A DNA stretch of 11,173 nt from Thalassiosira profunda (lineage: Eukaryota; Bacillariophyta; Thalassiosirophyceae; Thalassiosirales; Thalassiosiraceae): positions 1 through 11,173 of the forward strand of contig JALLAP010002433.1 of NCBI GenBank assembly GCA_036939355.1. The letters are read 5' to 3'. The notes below the pieces were generated by a model. That model saw nothing but the letters and a program-made list of their open reading frames with translations, was not told where the DNA came from and made no database searches. The position numbers and the translations under genes are program-made. Below are positions 1,463 through 11,173 of this stretch, piece after piece (position 1 is the stretch's first letter; every line of letters starts with the position of its first letter).

Positions 1463-3294
1463 ATGAAGCGCGCGGTCGCGGAGCCCGCCGGCGGGCGGTG
1501 CCTGAAACGGGCCAACTCGTCCCTCTTCTCCATCGCAACGCTCGTCGACGACGAACCGAACGCCCCCGACGCCCTCGCGGGGATCATGGGGGCGGGGGGA
1601 TCGCAGGACAACCTCCTCCTCGTCGACGATGGCGACGTGAAGGAGGAGAAAGATACGTATTCCTCGCTGAAGGCGTCGGGCCTAGTGCCGTTGGATTGCA
1701 GCGACGACGACGGAAATAATGGGGAGGACGCCCCGGAGGATGGCGTTTCGACGTCGTGTTCCTCGTCTGTCATCGACGATAAGGATGATAATACCGACGC
1801 CATTTGCAATTCTAGCGGGGCGAGGAAGGTATCAAATGTACTCATATCTGACATCGTAGACAAAGCTGCCGCTTCGTTACCGCGCGAGCCACCTACCAGC
1901 CACGAGGTAGAATGTAAACGGGAGTTGCAGGCTTCAAAGTCCAGTGACCACCGGACGGGGCTAATATTCGAGGCCGGGGCCAAGCACTTTGACCGGCACA
2001 ATAAGTTTCACAAGGAAAGATCTGTGCGGGTCACCAGTGTCCGCGATTATCTTGCAAAAGCTGAACCCTCCGATGGCGAAAAGACCATTTTCGAGCAGTG
2101 CAATCTCCTGGAAGGGAGCGGGGAGAAGGAGGACGAAGCAAAGAGGAGTCCAGAAGAACTGTGGCTCGACGATCATGACTACCTGAGAGTGCATTTACCG
2201 GGATACATGCAGCGGTGAGTGGACTTCCAGTTGGTCGGAGCAAGTGCTTTCCTCCGTCAAACACTCATTTGTTGTCTTCCTTTCATTGCTTTGCAGCCTC
2301 GACCGCATATCTCAATGCAACTGCCACCATCGCCTCGACATCGAGGCAGAGCAGTTCAAATCAATATACTTCACGAATGATTCTGTCCTCGAGGCCAAGA
2401 CCGCAGCCTCGTCCCTCTGCAACCTCGTATCGCGCGTCGTTAAAGGCGACCTGGACAATGGCTTCGCCGTGATCCGCCCACCGGGCCATCATGCGGAGCC
2501 GGGGTTGGCGGGCGGGTATTGTGTGATCAATAATGTGGCTGTTGCGGCTGCATACGCGCAAGAGAAGCTGGGAATGAAGGTCCTCATTGTGGACTGGGAC
2601 GGTAAGCGGGTTATTTGATCTGACCTCCTTAAGTTGTCGCCTTGAACAGACCTCACACGCTCAATTCTCATCTTTCTACCCAGTCCATCACGGAAACGGG
2701 ACGCAGCGATGCTTCATCGACAATCCGAACGTGCTGTATTTCTCCGCCCATCGATACCACGGCGGCAACTTCTTCCCATTTCAGCAACAGGGTGGCCCCT
2801 CATTTGCTGGAATGGCAGACGGGGAAGGCTTCAACATCAACGTTGGGTGGAACGACAAAGCAATTGGCGACGACGAATACCTCGTTCTCTGGGAGAAACT
2901 GTTGATGCCAGTGGCCCAGGAATTTGACCCTGACCTGATCCTCGTCAGTGCTGGTTTTGATGCCGCGCGTGGAGATATGGGAGAGTGCGACGTAACCCCG
3001 GAATGCTTTGCCCGGTTGGCGCGCCGGCTCAAGACACTTGCAAATGGAAAGGTTGTCTGTGCTTTGGAAGGCGGATACGTCCGGAGTGTCTTGTGCAAGT
3101 GCATCGAGAGCGTGCTGGCATCGTTGCTGGATGCTGACAGCAACGAGAAGTGCAAGGAAGAGCTGGCCCGGTTTCACAAGAACGTGGGAGACCTCGAAAT
3201 GCTGGATTGCATCAACGAATCCGCCGCCAAGAGCATCCGCGAGACTCTCAAAGTGCATGCCAAATACTGGAATTGCTTGAAGTCCGAGAACTGA
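1463..3294 (+). CDS. Class II (HDAC6-like) histone deacetylase, three exons
   Basis: Predicted exons are 1463-2214, 2297-2601 and 2684-3294, giving 555 residues. Both joins restore conserved sequence: CG|C gives an Arg before LDRIS, and G|TC gives the Val of WDVHHGNGTQ. The product is a zinc-dependent protein lysine deacetylase, presumably acting on histones or other proteins. The catalytic domain starts near residue 164 (RTGLIFE). Visible motifs are RPPGHHAE (311-318, with the His pair 315/316), zinc ligands D352 and H354, D445 in SAGFDAARGD, and the transition-state Tyr484 in LEGGY. The spacing fits an active enzyme, and Tyr484 argues against class IIa, which carries His there. The first ~160 residues are acidic and Ser-rich, probably disordered. 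KR pairs at 2-3 and 15-16 resemble a bipartite nuclear signal. The 1463 start is the first ATG in the frame. Deacetylase identity is solid; the subclass and the extreme N-terminus are less certain. Confidence 0.93.
2215..2296 (+). other. Intron 1 of the histone deacetylase gene
   Basis: The donor GTGAGT follows AGCG, and the acceptor TTTGCAG comes after a pyrimidine-rich tract. The 82-bp intron removes a stop codon (2216-2218) and brings exon 1 into frame with the LDRIS...RPPGHH exon. Confidence 0.9.
2602..2683 (+). other. Intron 2 of the histone deacetylase gene
   Basis: The donor is GTAAGC and the acceptor is CTACCCAG. Its removal joins VDWD to VHHGNGTQ, the metal-binding block shared by the whole arginase-fold deacetylase family, so the splice is well supported. 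It is 82 bp, the same length as intron 1. Confidence 0.93.
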
Positions 3295-3463: not shown

Positions 3464-5671
3464 TCACCAGTCGAAGACGCGGTCGCAGTCGAATTTGCCA
3501 GCGATAAGCGCATAGTGGCTGTCCCATAAGTAGTTGCACTGGTCGTCGGTGAGATTGCCGCAGTCTACACACCTCAACCGGACCCTTCGTCGTAGGGAAT
3601 CGAACTGCTGAACAAAAGGCAGCACATCCGCGTCATGTTCATTCGTCAAGGATGAGTATTCGCCATGCTCGTGCCAGTCCCCGAGAAGGTGATACCGGAG
3701 CAACTCGAGGGCCTCGTCCGGCAGCAACGTATTATTGTGCCTGAGAAGGTGGTACATGTACTCGCATCCCGACCACATCAGCGACACATTCTCGAGGCCA
3801 CAATGCTCTTGATACACCCCAGTATCCGATGCGAATCTTGCATCGTCCTCGTCCATGTTCAAGTGACGGAATTCACGGAAGGTGGCTCGCTGGGGAATCT
3901 TGCACCCAATTACCCTCGACCTTGACGAAATGGTCCAGTCATAGATCGACTCGGCCATTTCGCCCGTATGAGTGGGGTCCAAGATCTTGACAGCCTCGCC
4001 CAGCTCGTGAATCAGGGCGATGAACTGCACCCAATCGGGCAGGCCCTCCTCGCGAGCAACCTCCGCCATAAGGAAGCAGAGGGTGCGAAGTGAAGGAGCA
4101 GATTGGACAGGCTCGTCGTCTGCCCATGCATGGAAAGGGTGCGCGGGGAAGCTGTCGATCCACCCCAGGGCTTCAAGCAGCGTGACTTTCCCGAGGGAGA
4201 AGTTGAGGAATCTCTCCTTCATTGAAGCCACGTAATCGAACGTCTGGATTTTCCAGCCCTTGCGGTAGTGGTGCCGCCGCGGCGGGGTGTCGCTCGTGCA
4301 CACGAGACTGAGGTTGGCGCCATTGGCTTGCCAGAAGGAGGGGAGCTTGGTGCACGAGAGGGTCTGGTTGAGGGAGTCGGCGGTGAGGAAGGTGCCGTGG
4401 CAAGTGCGCAGTACCCAGAGGCTCCTCGAGGATTCCAGTTGCGTCAGCGCCTCGCAGCCTTCCGTCTTGCCACCGCCGTCTTCGTCGGACACGTGGCACG
4501 GGACGAACGTCGTCCACTTGTTCAGCACGTCGGTGTCAATGTCCAAGTCAGATTCACCATCGGTTTCGAGGTCGTCGGGGGACAACACAGACACCGCGCC
4601 ATTGGGGGTCGCCAGCAACAGGTGCCCGTGAGTAGTGCAGAACTGCATCCCATCCGCGCTTTCTGTGACCAGCCAATCCAGCTTCATCACTTCTCCAGTG
4701 TTATGCGATCGCACATTCAGCTTCCCCAAGGACCCCACCAACTGGACGGGCAAGAAGGATCCCTTGGACTTCGTCCCAGACAAATCCGAGAATCTCCGTC
4801 GTCGCACGCGGGCGCGTTGCAGCTTGGATGGCGAGTTGGCCTTCAGCGGACGGAGGTCGATTTGCATGGGGACCTTTCTGTACGTCTCGCTGTCATTATT
4901 GTTGACGTATTGCACCCTTTTTGTGGGCTTGACTCGGCACCCCAGGTGCTCATAAAAGGATATCAGCTTGCCGTGCCGGGTGACATCCTCTTCGGCATCC
5001 AGCATGCACTCAACGTCGTACAGCTGCTTTAAGTGTTTGCAGCCAGTGCTTTTGATTGGTCCAGAAATATTTTCCTCTTCATAGTCATCATCGTCGTTGC
5101 AATACTTTGACTTGAGGGATGTGATTGCCTCAGAGAACAGCAGGCCTCCCAAATCCCTCCCGCGGTATTGTGATTTGACGTCCAGCACGTGAATCTTCGC
5201 GTGGGCCGTCAAATGGGCAATTGCAGCCGCCTCTGCAATCACTTCAGATGCACCCGCATCACTCCCAAGCTGCGCCGGGGGCTTTACAGATTGGAACGCG
5301 TCCGGGAGCTCGGACGAGTAAATAATCTTGGCAATCGCGCCGGGCCGATCCGAGCGAAAGAGGAGGATGCGCTCCTCCCCTCGATGTTGGGCCATCGGCC
5401 CTCCCTGTCGATGCTCCAGCCTCAGCGTGTAAAATTTATCGGCCTGCTGCCCGGCGGCGGCGCCCCTGGCAGTAGCCGCGGTTGTAGCCCCAGCTGCCGA
5501 CCTATTGTTGGCACCCCCCTCGCTCGAATCTGCGAATCCGCTGGCAAAGAGGTCGTGAAGGCCAAACGCCCGGCCGTCGCGCCCCAAAGCTTGGGTCAGG
5601 AAGAGCTTCCACGATTTGGCCAGGGTCCGGGCCTTCTTGGCCGGGGGAGGCTCGGCCGCTTCCGCCGCCAT
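3464..5671 (-). CDS. GNAT-like / fascin-like beta-trefoil / MIOX-like fusion protein
   Basis: A single exon of 735 residues starts in a good ACCATGG context. Residues 1-20 include PAKKAR, a possible nuclear signal. Residues ~75-275 look like a GNAT N-acetyltransferase: a strand IHVLDV (160-165), the acetyl-CoA loop YRGRDLGGLL (169-178) and KLISFYEHLGCRV (235-247, with Tyr240). Residues ~300-460 show beta-trefoil/fascin-type elements, HGHLLLATPNGAV (348-360) and CHGTFLTADSLNQTLSCT (424-441). Residues ~475-735 match myo-inositol oxygenase to its usual C-terminal Trp: VTLLEAL, ALIHELGEA, GVYQEHCGLENV, EYMYHLLRHN, LPFVQQFDSL. Known MIOX converts myo-inositol to D-glucuronate with a di-iron centre. 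Here His555, His623, His661 and Asp691 are kept. The bridging Asp is Glu556, the first His ligand appears missing or displaced, and several substrate residues differ. Inositol oxygenase activity is therefore doubtful. The MIOX fold is near certain, GNAT likely and the trefoil probable. I do not know the function of the whole protein. Confidence 0.85.
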   Translation of the reverse strand: MAAEAAEPPPAKKARTLAKSWKLFLTQALGRDGRAFGLHDLFASGFADSSEGGANNRSAAGATTAATARGAAAGQQADKFYTLRLEHRQGGPMAQHRGEERILLFRSDRPGAIAKIIYSSELPDAFQSVKPPAQLGSDAGASEVIAEAAAIAHLTAHAKIHVLDVKSQYRGRDLGGLLFSEAITSLKSKYCNDDDDYEEENISGPIKSTGCKHLKQLYDVECMLDAEEDVTRHGKLISFYEHLGCRVKPTKRVQYVNNNDSETYRKVPMQIDLRPLKANSPSKLQRARVRRRRFSDLSGTKSKGSFLPVQLVGSLGKLNVRSHNTGEVMKLDWLVTESADGMQFCTTHGHLLLATPNGAVSVLSPDDLETDGESDLDIDTDVLNKWTTFVPCHVSDEDGGGKTEGCEALTQLESSRSLWVLRTCHGTFLTADSLNQTLSCTKLPSFWQANGANLSLVCTSDTPPRRHHYRKGWKIQTFDYVASMKERFLNFSLGKVTLLEALGWIDSFPAHPFHAWADDEPVQSAPSLRTLCFLMAEVAREEGLPDWVQFIALIHELGEAVKILDPTHTGEMAESIYDWTISSRSRVIGCKIPQRATFREFRHLNMDEDDARFASDTGVYQEHCGLENVSLMWSGCEYMYHLLRHNNTLLPDEALELLRYHLLGDWHEHGEYSSLTNEHDADVLPFVQQFDSLRRRVRLRCVDCGNLTDDQCNYLWDSHYALIAGKFDCDRVFDW

Positions 5672-5971: not shown

Positions 5972-7915
5972 ATGGACTCGCATCATCGGTCGATTGATGA
6001 CTTTTTAGGGCAAATCTTTCAAGAGTACAAGCCGCGGCTGCCACATGCACCAACACGCGATGGCTTTTGGAATTGGATGGGGCAGTGCCGTCACTGTTTG
6101 CCCCTGCCCCTGCTCAGTCTGTGCATTGCAAACTCGTCGGATGCCACGGAAATATTGATGCTCTCGTATCTGTTGGCCAATCCACAGTTTCGACATGACA
6201 TGCTCTCGGGCGATTTGGGGGGAGGCGAGGGAGATTCATCTTCTTTGGAAGGAGCCGAATACCTCGCCGCGTCCATCTTCCTCGGAATGCTGATCGGGGG
6301 AACTCTTCTCGGATTTCTGTCGGATCAAATTGGACGTCGTCCTGCGCTTCTCGCAGGCCTCTTGATCAATGCAATTGCAGGTTTCAGTTCCTCTCTTCCG
6401 TTTTTGACGCCCACAATACAACAACTGACTCGATGGCGGTTCTTATCAGGGATAGGGGTGGGTGCAACTGTACCGTCCCTATTTAGCCTGGCGAGCGAGT
6501 GGAGCCCTAAGGAAGTGCGTGGGGCTGTTGTTACTTTTGTGGCGAGCTTCTGGATGGTGGGGAGCATCCTTGTGTCTGGACTGGCTTGGATTCTATTTAG
6601 GTGGGACGACGGGCATGATATCCCTGCTCACAATTCAGTGCCACTATGGCGAATCTTTGCTGCACTTTGTGCATTTCCGAGCGGACTGGGTGCATGGATG
6701 GTGTATTTGCACGTTCCTGAGAGCCCACGGTTCCTAGCATCGGCGAAACAAAAGTACGATCTGTCGGCAGATGCATGCAATACGATGGCGGCATCTCTGA
6801 ATATCGAGCTTGTGAACGATGCCCACGGAAATGGCGGGGAGATGTCAGATCATAGTGACAGCAATCGAACGGGGGTAAGAGATGATCTGTCTGAGCATGA
6901 AATGTCAGAGCACAGCGAAAAGAGCCAACCGGGCATGACCCGAGCGTTGCTTGAGGGCGGAAACGAAAGCAAGACAACCAGCACAATGCACACCACCAAA
7001 CCTTTGGCCGAAGAAGAAGTGCGTCAACATTACTCCTCAAGCATATCCATCGACATAACAGCTTCATCCTTGACCAGCAAACTGCGCCAAGCGACGAACA
7101 AGCTTCTCGATACTCTGCAAAATCTCTACTCCACCCGAATGCTCACCCGCACTACGCTGCCTCTGCAAACCATTTGGTTTTGTCTGTCGTTTGGCACCTA
7201 TGGCATAACAACTTGGATCAACACGCTCTTTGTAGAGGTTCATCTGGAGAACATCTACTTCAACTCCTTTCTATTTGCATTGGCAAATCTTCCTGGAAAT
7301 ATAATTTCCATTCTGTATTCAGACCGATGGGGGAGGAAGCGCCTGCTGGTCTGGAGCTTGCTTGGTGCATCGGGAGGCTTGGCTGTATTTGCACTCTTGG
7401 TGTATTGGGGAGGGGGCGGTGCGTTTGGAATAGTTCTATCAGCATGCATCTTTCAGATGCTGTCCATTGTTAGTTGGAATGCAATCGATATCTTGAGCGG
7501 AGAGCTCTTTCCAACTCGAGTGAGGAGTGCGGGGATGGGAGTCTGCACAGCCAGTGGGAGATTTGGGGCAATGCTTGCTCAATTTGTGAACGCGAAGTTG
7601 CTGATGGCCGGAGGCGAAGGTGGAGCATCTGCATCTGTACTTGTCGTGGCGGCATCCACACTGCTTGTGGGAGCTGGCATGCCTCTGTTTTTGGAGCGAG
7701 ACATGGCGCTGGGCGAGCTGATAGACGAGATTGCGGCTGAATCTCCATCTCCTTCTACGCAACTGACTCTGGGTTGCATGGGAATGAAGAGCCAAAAGAT
7801 TCATCTGAGCGATGATGAAACAGATGTTGTGCCACGCAATCGAAGCCGAAAAGTCAACGAGTATCAGGCCATCCAGCAGCGTGCTCAAGAGGTCGACAGC
7901 TTTTGCTTGCTCTGA
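5972..7915 (+). CDS. MFS transporter, SV2/organic-solute carrier type
   Basis: An intronless 647-residue membrane carrier of the major facilitator superfamily. The first helix carries DATEILMLSYLL (57-68), as in SV2-related carriers. Motif A, GFLSDQIGRRPALL, sits at 114-127 between TM2 and TM3. RFLSGIGVGATVPSL (156-170) is TM4. PESPRFL (249-255) follows TM6, as in sugar and organic-ion porters. DRWGRKRLL (451-459) is the second-half copy of motif A, and ELFPTRVRSAGMG (511-523) is the conserved late motif. About 12 helices are expected. The loop between TM6 and TM7 is long (~256-390) and rich in Ser, His and acidic residues. The C-terminal tail from ~590 is hydrophilic. The substrate cannot be read from sequence; small organic solutes or ions are likely from the family. 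The start at 5972 is the first in-frame ATG. Its stop lies 29 bp from that of the opposing PP2C gene. Confidence 0.92.
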   Translation: MDSHHRSIDDFLGQIFQEYKPRLPHAPTRDGFWNWMGQCRHCLPLPLLSLCIANSSDATEILMLSYLLANPQFRHDMLSGDLGGGEGDSSSLEGAEYLAASIFLGMLIGGTLLGFLSDQIGRRPALLAGLLINAIAGFSSSLPFLTPTIQQLTRWRFLSGIGVGATVPSLFSLASEWSPKEVRGAVVTFVASFWMVGSILVSGLAWILFRWDDGHDIPAHNSVPLWRIFAALCAFPSGLGAWMVYLHVPESPRFLASAKQKYDLSADACNTMAASLNIELVNDAHGNGGEMSDHSDSNRTGVRDDLSEHEMSEHSEKSQPGMTRALLEGGNESKTTSTMHTTKPLAEEEVRQHYSSSISIDITASSLTSKLRQATNKLLDTLQNLYSTRMLTRTTLPLQTIWFCLSFGTYGITTWINTLFVEVHLENIYFNSFLFALANLPGNIISILYSDRWGRKRLLVWSLLGASGGLAVFALLVYWGGGGAFGIVLSACIFQMLSIVSWNAIDILSGELFPTRVRSAGMGVCTASGRFGAMLAQFVNAKLLMAGGEGGASASVLVVAASTLLVGAGMPLFLERDMALGELIDEIAAESPSPSTQLTLGCMGMKSQKIHLSDDETDVVPRNRSRKVNEYQAIQQRAQEVDSFCLL

Positions 7916-7944: not shown

Positions 7945-9854
7945 TTACTGTGCAGTGTCGATTTCCAGGTCGGCGATGGCAATTGCAATGTCGTCTCTGT
8001 AGCGACCCCCCTTGTCCTCCTGCCATCCCTGAGCCGCAGCGTAAATCAAATCTTCGCAACGAGCAGTGGGTGCGTCTTGCCTTTCGATTCGGCGTCTCCA
8101 CTACTGCCAGCTGCGTCGTACAGTCCTTTGGCAACGTGATTTGCCACAGTTTGCCCCGGGAGGTAGTCGAATAGACCATCGGTGCCAGAGACTGCAAATA
8201 TATTGATGTCCTGCTCCGTGTACCCAACACACTGCGAAGATTGCACAGCGTCGCCACTGGCAGGATCGATCTCCACCTGCTCTCCAGCTTTACACTCCTC
8301 ATTCAGCGTCTCCAACACCCGCGCCTTGATATCGTTCACATCCAGAATATCGATCAGCGGGTCAGGGATAACGCCCACCTCCCCGGCGTCCCAATCTCCA
8401 ATTGACCGGCTCATGGCCAGCCCCGAAGTGCTTCCGGTCGTCGGATCCTGGTACAACACGCGCGTGGTACCCTTGCCGTGATCGAGGAAGCCGTTGGGGA
8501 GGTAAACAGTTCCACCCATGTGCTCGACGCGATCGCGTTCCGTGGAGAGGTGCGGCTTGTCCTCACGTGTGTCGAATATGATGTGAGTTTTTCCTTTGAC
8601 ATCATCACTGGCACTGGTGGATTGGGTTGGATCGTTGATGTGCACGGCAATGAAGGAATAACTGTCTCCCGCATTTGCAACATATATTCTGGGACCCAAC
8701 TGAAGGACGACACTGGCTGTGCACCCGCCTGATGGATGAGCGGGAGCCGTGGCATCCAGATGTAGGAACGTCTCATGCAACATTTTGCCAATGTCGTGGT
8801 CCTTTTGTGTTTGATCCACTTCTGCCTCCGAGTTCTTTGCATCATACTCCGCCAGTTTGCTTCCCAACAATGCCGGCAATGTCTTTGCGACATATTCTGA
8901 AACTTTCTCCCCATACTTGGCGTGTCCATCGAATGCACCCAACAATCTCGTCACCGGCTTTGCAGCGTCGCCATTGGAAGATGAGTTGATATTGTGGTAC
9001 ATGTATGGCGAGAGCACAAGAGCCCGGTCCTGATTGATTTGTGATTCCAACGCGCCCCCCTTGTAACCTATCAGCGTCAGAGTAGCCGCATGCTCCGCTC
9101 CCGTAGATGATATCATGTACTGCTTCCTATCCTTTTCGGCGCTCTTGCTATCATCTGCACTCGACGTCGACTCCTTTCGCATACTCTCCAACCGACTCTT
9201 CAGATCTTCATTGTAATGAACATCCAACGGCAGAAACGGGCAGCCGTACACCGGGCACGTGCCCAAACCATGTCGATGTGCGTGATTGTGATGAATGGTA
9301 GGATCGGACGCGCCGTTCGTAGCCCCCTTCAAAATGCCCGACTCATCCAGACCCGCTGCATCCAATGCCTTTGACACGACTTGGGCGGAGGCAGCCTTCA
9401 CTTCCTTCGTGGCGACGCCCGTGCCATCATCCAAGTGAACGCCAGGATAGCTATCAAAGCCAGAATATTCGACACCGAATTCGACATTCTTCTTCGTCTC
9501 CGCGTTGTAGCCACTTTTGTTGTCATCAGCATCGACATCGCTGTCGCCATTCACTGCCACGGCCGAACCCAGCAACAAAGTGGTGGCACAATAATACGCT
9601 GCAAACGAAGTGGATGCAGTGGCCGTTGCAACAAACGCCTTGGTGGCGAACGAGCCGAAGCCCCGGCCCGTCGATCTCTTCGTCTCGCTGGACGAGTCGG
9701 AAGAGGATACGTGGCGCATCGTGTGGAGCAGGCAGGGTGATGGGTGCGTCAGGAAGGGTTGATGTCTGTGTGGTATCGCGCCGATGAAAGCGCTGCGAGG
9801 AAGTGATCGGGCAAGTGGGTGCGGGAAGGCCAGGGCGCGGGCGGCCCGTTCCAT
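7945..9854 (-). CDS. PP2C-type Ser/Thr phosphatase with a frame break near its C-terminus
   Basis: A metal-dependent (Mg/Mn) protein phosphatase. The main frame runs 9854-8046 (602 residues). PP2C motifs in order are NQDRALV (274-280), GAFDGHAKYG (307-316), SGGCTASVVL (375-384), VANAGDS (392-398), PHLSTERDRVEHMGG (434-448), LAMSRSIGDWD (479-489) and SGTDGLFD (556-563). That frame stops at 8046 after HPLLVAKI. The missing end (CEDLIYAAAQGWQ, then GRYRDDIAIAIADLEI) lies in the -1 frame and ends at TAA 7945-7947. It carries the DD pair that normally supplies the last metal ligand. One absent base near 8060 would explain this; the switch must lie within 8049-8100. Residues 73-101 form a hydrophobic anchor-like segment, and the first 45 residues are Arg-rich and free of acidic residues after Glu2. 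A second candidate start is Met46 (codon 9719-9717). A His-rich stretch with two Cys (188-205) precedes the catalytic domain. PP2C identity is certain; whether the break is real is not. Confidence 0.85.
8049..8100 (-). other. Interval containing the PP2C frame switch
   Basis: The upstream frame stays open until TGA at 8048-8046. The downstream frame is closed by TAG at 8103-8101, so the switch must fall between them. Homology reads naturally as HPLL followed directly by CEDLIYAA, which points to a missing base in CTCGTTGCGAAG near 8060. No homopolymer or classical slippery heptamer is visible. Confidence 0.75.
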
Positions 9855-10067: not shown

Positions 10068-11173
10068 ATGGTCACCATCGATGGCAAGGCCGCCGCCCTC
10101 GTGGCGGCGGGGAGCGCAGCGGCGGCTTACCTCGTCGCGAAGCGGCAGTACGAGGGACGGGCCGCGGCGGAACGTCGCGAAAGATACGAGGCGGACCGGA
10201 AGGTTCGCTTCGCCGAGACGGAGGAGAGGAAGCGGGAGGGGCTGCCGGCGGGGACCAAGCTGGAGTGAGTTGCGATCGGCTGAATAATATTGCAACCTCC
10301 TTGCAATAATTTCACGCCGTCCGACGTCTAATTTGCGCCTGTGCACATCTTATGCTCGTTTTCTCCATCTGCCGTTGTTGTTTGCAGCGACGTCGGCGGC
10401 ACCGAGGAGGTGTACCTCTGGGAAGTCGAAAAGCTCTCCAAGTACTTCAAATCAGAGGGCGAAGGCATTGAGAACATTATGTATGCCCTGAGCGAGGCCG
10501 CCAAAGACGATAGGATGGGCGACCACCGTGCGAGGTACAACAAACTGATCGGGGATCACGAGTGCATCCTGGCGAACATTCGACGGAGTCCGGGGAAGGA
10601 CGGGACCACGCAGGCGTACGTGCGGGCGGGGCCGCGGGCCAAATTGCACTTCAACCCGAAGAACGTCAATGCGGCCATCGTGACGTGCGGGGGGCTGTGC
10701 CCCGGATTGAACAATGTTGTGCGAGAGATCACACGGGCGCTGTTTCACCTCTACGGAATTCAGGGGAAGGTGTACGGCATCGTGGGCGGCTACAAGGGCT
10801 TCTACGATCCGCAGACGCCGCCAATCAACCTGACGCCGGAGAGCGTGGAGAACATCCACCACGAGGGAGGCACCATCCTCGGCTCTTCCCGCGGTGGATT
10901 CGACATTGACAAGATCTGCGACTTCTTGACTTCGAAGAAGATCAAGCAGCTCTATGTGATTGGAGGAGATGGCACCCACCGGGGAGCCTACAAAATCCAC
11001 GAGACTTGCATGGAGCGTGGGCTGCACGTGGCTGTTGCAGGTATCCCAAAGGTGAGGGATTTGCTGTACTCAGTGTACTCTCATCCACTTGTGGATTCAT
11101 TCTTACGCTAGAACTCTTTCATTGACGAATGCAGACAATCGATAATGATGTGGACTACCTCGACCGATCCTTT
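10068..11173 (+). CDS. ATP-dependent 6-phosphofructokinase, plant type (3' end outside window)
   Basis: Exons are 10068-10264, 10388-11051 and 11135 to the window edge, 300 codons so far. The joined reading gives TKLDDVGGTEEVYLW and GIPK|TIDNDVDYLDRSF, both natural for the family. The enzyme phosphorylates fructose 6-phosphate to fructose 1,6-bisphosphate, the committed step of glycolysis. Visible motifs are the nucleotide loop GGLCPGLNN (167-175), GGYKGFY, GGDGTHRGA (258-266) and PKTIDND (286-292) with catalytic Asp290. Gly261 in GGDGT, where PPi-dependent enzymes have a second Asp, favours ATP as the donor. Lys287 places it in the plant-like clade. Residues 8-25 are hydrophobic (AAALVAAGSAAAAYLVAK), followed by a strongly charged Arg/Glu helix to ~58, suggesting a signal anchor or targeting segment encoded by exon 1. 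The rest of the catalytic domain lies beyond 11173. The family call is secure; location is inferred. Confidence 0.92.
10265..10387 (+). other. Intron 1 of the phosphofructokinase gene
   Basis: The donor GTGAGT follows CTGGA and the acceptor is TTTGCAG. At 123 bp it is the longest intron in the window. It splits an Asp codon (GA|C) between the anchor-like exon and the body of the enzyme. An ATG at 10341 inside it is in frame with exon 2. Confidence 0.85.
11052..11134 (+). other. Intron 2 of the phosphofructokinase gene
   Basis: The donor GTGAGG follows CCAAAG and the acceptor is ATGCAG. The 83-bp intron interrupts the catalytic block exactly between GIPK and TIDND, a join that is unmistakable in this family. 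Without splicing the frame ends at 11111. Confidence 0.95.

Follow-up and report, generated by a model that had tools for sequence, protein, structure and literature searches.

The stretch analysed here (the window) comprises 11,173 nucleotides of contig JALLAP010002433.1 from the diatom Thalassiosira profunda. On its minus strand lies an open reading frame (ORF) whose 735-residue product combines a GNAT acetyltransferase fold, a single beta-trefoil and the fold of myo-inositol oxygenase (MIOX) (Table 1). A preliminary description had proposed that these three parts share one uninterrupted frame, and this was borne out, as one frame runs from ATG to stop and all three folds were matched. The three-domain fusion, as observed, is confirmed as real. 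The closest public protein is ACHAXT_010341, also from T. profunda, with 742 residues and 98% identity over the whole length.

Table 1. Positions in the window of the three-domain gene, its domains and the residues discussed in the text. Counts are family members carrying the residue.
Feature	Position	Strand	Remarks
ORF, GNAT - beta-trefoil - putative pseudo-MIOX	3464..5671	minus	735 codons, ATG to stop, uninterrupted
K-K-A-R, residues 12-15, nuclear-import-like basic motif	5627..5638	minus	K[KR]x[KR] family motif
GNAT acetyltransferase fold, residues 82-277	4841..5428	minus	
Acetyl-CoA pyrophosphate-loop region, V165-K-S-Q-Y-R170-G171-R-D173-L-G175	5147..5179	minus	K166, R170, G171, G175 58/58
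Acidic end of strand beta5, D225-A226-E227-E228-D229, candidate general-base region	4985..4999	minus	A226, E228 58/58
Y240, GNAT catalytic-acid tyrosine position	4952..4954	minus	58/58
Single beta-trefoil, residues 303-460	4292..4765	minus	
MIOX-fold domain without di-iron site, residues 461-735	3467..4291	minus	
R529, family-specific Arg adjoining lost His98 place	4085..4087	minus	71/72; 58/58 in second alignment
L531, His98 place	4079..4081	minus	His in 0/72
H555-E556, His123-Asp124 place	4004..4009	minus	His 64/72; Asp 1/72, Glu 43, Gly 16
R584, Asp142 place	3920..3922	minus	Arg 55/72, Asp 8
H623, His194 place	3803..3805	minus	His 36/72, Asn 25
H661, His220 place	3689..3691	minus	His 2/72 (ORF and near-identical T. 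profunda copy P0001), Phe 53
R694, Asp253 place	3590..3592	minus	Asp 0/72, Arg 54

The preliminary description had suggested seeking the same architecture in other diatoms, and the same domain order was found in dozens of sequences from many of them. A first protein search returned 92 relatives of the 735-residue protein and a profile search 97; scoring in each search was limited to the 7993 candidates with most shared words, so that a range confined to diatoms is not established by it. Six relatives (P0006, P0009, P0043, P0056, P0057 and P0096) cover 89-100% of the query and have as their source mmetsp, a transcriptome project. For the relatives, these records uphold the proposal of a single mRNA; T. 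profunda is not covered by them.

Over the C-terminal domain, both homology to PF05153 and the MIOX fold were found. The di-iron site of MIOX has six ligand positions, which we take to be His98, His123, Asp124, His194, His220 and Asp253. The ligand types were taken from an extract of PMC6651669, and the positions were mapped with the mouse MIOX sequence. Ligands were counted in 72 C-terminal domains from 112 sequences, the other 40 being dropped for lack of a start motif or as too short. None of these members keeps all six ligands: three keep none, 37 keep one, 30 keep two and two keep three. The 735-residue protein itself presents L, H, E, H, H and R at the six places. HMMER alignments to mouse MIOX, independent of the MAFFT alignment, paired His98, Asp124 and Asp253 with the same residues. 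In 6 of 72 members some histidine lies no more than 8 columns from that of His98, and a shifted histidine is possible in those. Separate MIOX genes, which may be alleles or paralogues, occur in the same assembly (21.8 Mb in 1366 contigs, as searched), at C1205 and C1137 (L012 and L013), in several exon-like pieces; their translations contain HLLQTAE, LLHDMGK, PHCGL, RYHS and FNKFDLYTK, and with these all six ligands.

Judged by its ligand residues, the C-terminal domain is most likely a pseudo-oxygenase, a catalytically dead MIOX, and an active MIOX as the main reading was rejected on the same count. What had been described as a MIOX-like oxygenase is supported as a fold and not as an oxygenase. 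PhnZ, an HD-domain di-iron oxygenase, gave a much weaker match than MIOX, and its HD motif is H-E in the diatom protein. Compared with known MIOX (PF05153; PDB 2huo, 2ibn), 70 of 72 members of the diatom family have lost four to six of the six ligands and the remaining two have lost three; the family differs further in its fusion to GNAT and trefoil domains. Several family members are named 'inositol oxygenase' in public records; the loss of the metal site contradicts this naming, which, from the sequences, is probably wrong. Diatom metabolic reconstructions that count the family as MIOX would then be wrong as well.

A search with the C-terminal domain alone gave 12 matches among 700 candidates (E <= 0.001, 38-72% identity), of which five were already within the ligand count and seven (P0113-P0119) were left out of it. 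Five of these seven, inspected by eye, contain the family motif YDWTI..RS and by that motif are pieces of the pseudo-MIOX family, not canonical MIOX.

Fold comparison identified a GNAT fold in the N-terminal part of the protein. The first rows were the N-alpha-acetyltransferases RimI, NatC/Naa30 and Naa60, with many other GNATs tied within about 1 Z and small-molecule enzymes, for example an aminoglycoside acetyltransferase, also among the rows. The likeness to RimI, Naa30/NatC and Naa60 extends over residues 82-277 and includes an invariant tyrosine in FYE.LG and a coenzyme A (CoA) loop of the form R-G-x-x-x-G, at an identity of 12-24% in the RimI, NatC and Naa60 rows. The diatom protein differs from these GNAT N-alpha-acetyltransferases by an Asp at a loop glycine and by the added trefoil and MIOX domains. 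A sequence search with the 735-residue protein gave no GNAT match at E <= 10, and the 13 matches of the family profile to PDB sequences at E <= 10 included no GNAT chain. One relative alone, P0080, matched Naa30 (E 0.0013), and in its alignment to Naa30 (7l1k) the same tyrosine falls on FYE.LG.

Conservation was scored on a 58-member alignment, and pairwise identity on its 49 full-length members. Pairwise identity over core columns averages 0.607 in the GNAT domain, 0.496 in the MIOX domain and 0.380 in the trefoil, and invariant residues occupy 16 of 138, 18 of 261 and 3 of 125 core columns, respectively. Y240 occupies what we take to be the place of the catalytic tyrosine that follows the GNAT beta5 region; G244, R265 and M269 are likewise present in 58/58. 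At the acidic end of beta5, the remaining positions are kept in 57 (E227), 53 (D229) and 47 (D225) of the 58 members. The idea that E228 and Y240 copy the presumed Glu-Tyr spacing of RimI was dropped, as the Naa30 alignment has a 3-residue insertion there. From its sequence the GNAT part looks active. Binding of acetyl-CoA is likely, though not proven because a loop glycine is replaced by Asp or Asn.

Ahead of the GNAT domain, a K[KR]x[KR] motif occurs within the first 60 residues or less in 55 of 67 sequences whose first residue is Met and whose GNAT motif is preceded by 35 residues or more, against 3.9 expected from shuffling the same stretches. The motif is kept while the remaining N-terminus varies, and it fits the classical one-part nuclear signal. 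Neither this motif nor the missing di-iron site had figured in the preliminary description. Between the GNAT and MIOX domains, fold comparison found a beta-trefoil, in which F306, P308 and W447 are present in 58/58 members. The preliminary description had called this part fascin-like. The trefoil is upheld, while fascin is not separable from other trefoils, given that no more than 1 Z separates the rows for fascin, Symfoil, CBM92, CBM42, ricin-type and interleukin trefoils. Set against the beta-trefoils of fascin, FGF, FRG1, CBM92 and the ricin type, the diatom protein has one trefoil, and it lacks the four tandem trefoils that make up fascin.

We consider the odds slightly in favour of a diatom nuclear GNAT that acetylates a protein amine, with the trefoil and dead MIOX domains serving for docking or sensing. 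The protein would enter the nucleus, and its GNAT domain would bind acetyl-CoA and use it to acetylate a protein amine. For the trefoil and pseudo-MIOX domains two roles are conceivable, neither of them oxidative: selection of a substrate or partner, or detection of a small ligand in the former inositol pocket. A protein amine is suggested as substrate because the first GNAT rows are N-alpha-acetyltransferases. Of the earlier proposal of an enzyme that modifies a sugar, polyol or amine, amine acetylation appears the most plausible part, and a sugar or polyol oxygenase is unlikely, since no member keeps the six di-iron ligands. Should a pseudoenzyme domain indeed control a nuclear acetyltransferase here, the protein would represent an unstudied regulatory layer in a group weighty for marine primary production, and a directly testable example of an inositol enzyme that has become a regulator.

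Several points weigh against this account. Three of the six ligands, H555, H623 and H661, remain in this species together with E556, and its C-terminal domain could still hold a single metal ion; the invariant residues along the MIOX part also indicate some kind of constraint. At D173, the middle residue of the CoA loop, 56 of the 58 members have Asp and the other 2 Asn, and none has the glycine of the textbook GNAT loop, Q/R-x-x-G-x-G/A. That middle glycine is also absent from certain active GNATs, GNA1 among them. Whether the candidate general base is D225/E227 or E228 depends on the 3-residue insertion. Twelve of the 67 members lack the basic motif, the 67 sequences are related and so do not amount to 55 independent events, and such a motif alone is not proof of nuclear import.

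A more specific form of the sensing role, which we think improbable, makes the dead MIOX a nuclear sensor of inositol or inositol phosphate: with an anionic inositol phosphate bound in its pocket, it would turn the acetyltransferase on or off. It is suggested by the gain of arginines at the old site: at the places of Asp142, which we take to contact inositol in MIOX, and of Asp253 in most members, and at Arg529 beside the lost His98 place in nearly all. If true, the family would supply an inositol-phosphate-gated acetyltransferase derived from a retired inositol enzyme.

The replacement of the loop glycine in 58/58 members and the dead MIOX part are also what one would expect if GNAT and MIOX were both non-catalytic and the whole protein a nuclear scaffold or sensor. 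We regard this as unlikely, in that Y240, R170, G171, G175 and E228 are all invariant and the GNAT domain is the slowest-changing part, as an active site would be. A cytosolic enzyme that acetylates small amines or sugars, its trefoil binding carbohydrate and its basic motif being no nuclear signal, would suit the aminoglycoside acetyltransferase among the GNAT rows and CBM92 and CBM42 among the trefoil rows. The conservation of K[KR]x[KR] speaks against it, as do the N-alpha-acetyltransferases in the first GNAT rows, though rows within 1 Z are tied, and we rate it a shade below the inositol-phosphate sensor.

Even less probable is a MIOX domain that still acts as an oxygenase or metal enzyme through an altered site, for example a single iron on H623, H661 and E556, sharing one substrate with the GNAT domain. 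The equivalents of His194 and His220 occur together only in the ORF and its T. profunda copy (2/72), Phe and Arg prevail at the His220 and Asp253 places, and MIOX genes with intact motifs are present in the same genome. That two adjacent genes were read as one by annotation is extremely improbable and was rejected, given the single frame and a domain order that recurs across diatoms, mmetsp records included.

Named family members come from Thalassiosira, Conticribra, Discostella, Skeletonema, Odontella, Leptocylindrus, Cylindrotheca and Seminavis, and taxids add Corethron pennatum, Asterionellopsis glacialis and two Thalassionema species. A record marked Psemu1 is presumably from a Pseudo-nitzschia, and the majority of the remaining matches are metagenome proteins. 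Because its range runs from Corethron and Leptocylindrus to pennates such as Seminavis, the family is, on the branching order of diatoms, probably old within them. NCBIfam yielded no family for the 735-residue protein. Against viral_contigs, a single scan with the family alignment produced 24 pattern matches, none of them confirmed, and a viral origin was rejected on that ground. Among titles and the starts of abstracts, we found no study of a GNAT-trefoil-MIOX fusion; the domain combination was not found described in that literature, and taken singly the domains all belong to known kinds.

One relative, P0021, is labelled as the dinoflagellate Alexandrium tamarense and shares 61% identity with the 735-residue protein; it is likely diatom contamination. 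Fifteen predicted relatives (P0069, P0071, P0072, P0075, P0076, P0079, P0082, P0085, P0089, P0091, P0100-P0103 and P0107) end at most 60 residues from S[LI]R[TS], continuing as [CLF]VS or LVR, as seen from the protein ends. Their early stops look like read-through into an intron (GTNAGN) left unspliced within the MIOX part, a position at which the gene at 3464..5671 has no intron.

Elsewhere in the window, a tandem array at 191-1059 (period 201, 4.5 copies, 83% matches) carries long spurious ORFs on both strands. A histone-deacetylase-like gene of several exons occupies 1463-3294 on the plus strand, with PF00850 on its last exon and no Pfam match on the first; it lies tail to tail with the acetyltransferase ORF, its end 169 bases away. 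On the other side follow an MFS sugar transporter (5972-7915, plus strand; PF00083), a PP2C phosphatase (8046-9854, minus strand; PF00481) and a partial phosphofructokinase (10479-11111, plus strand; PF00365).
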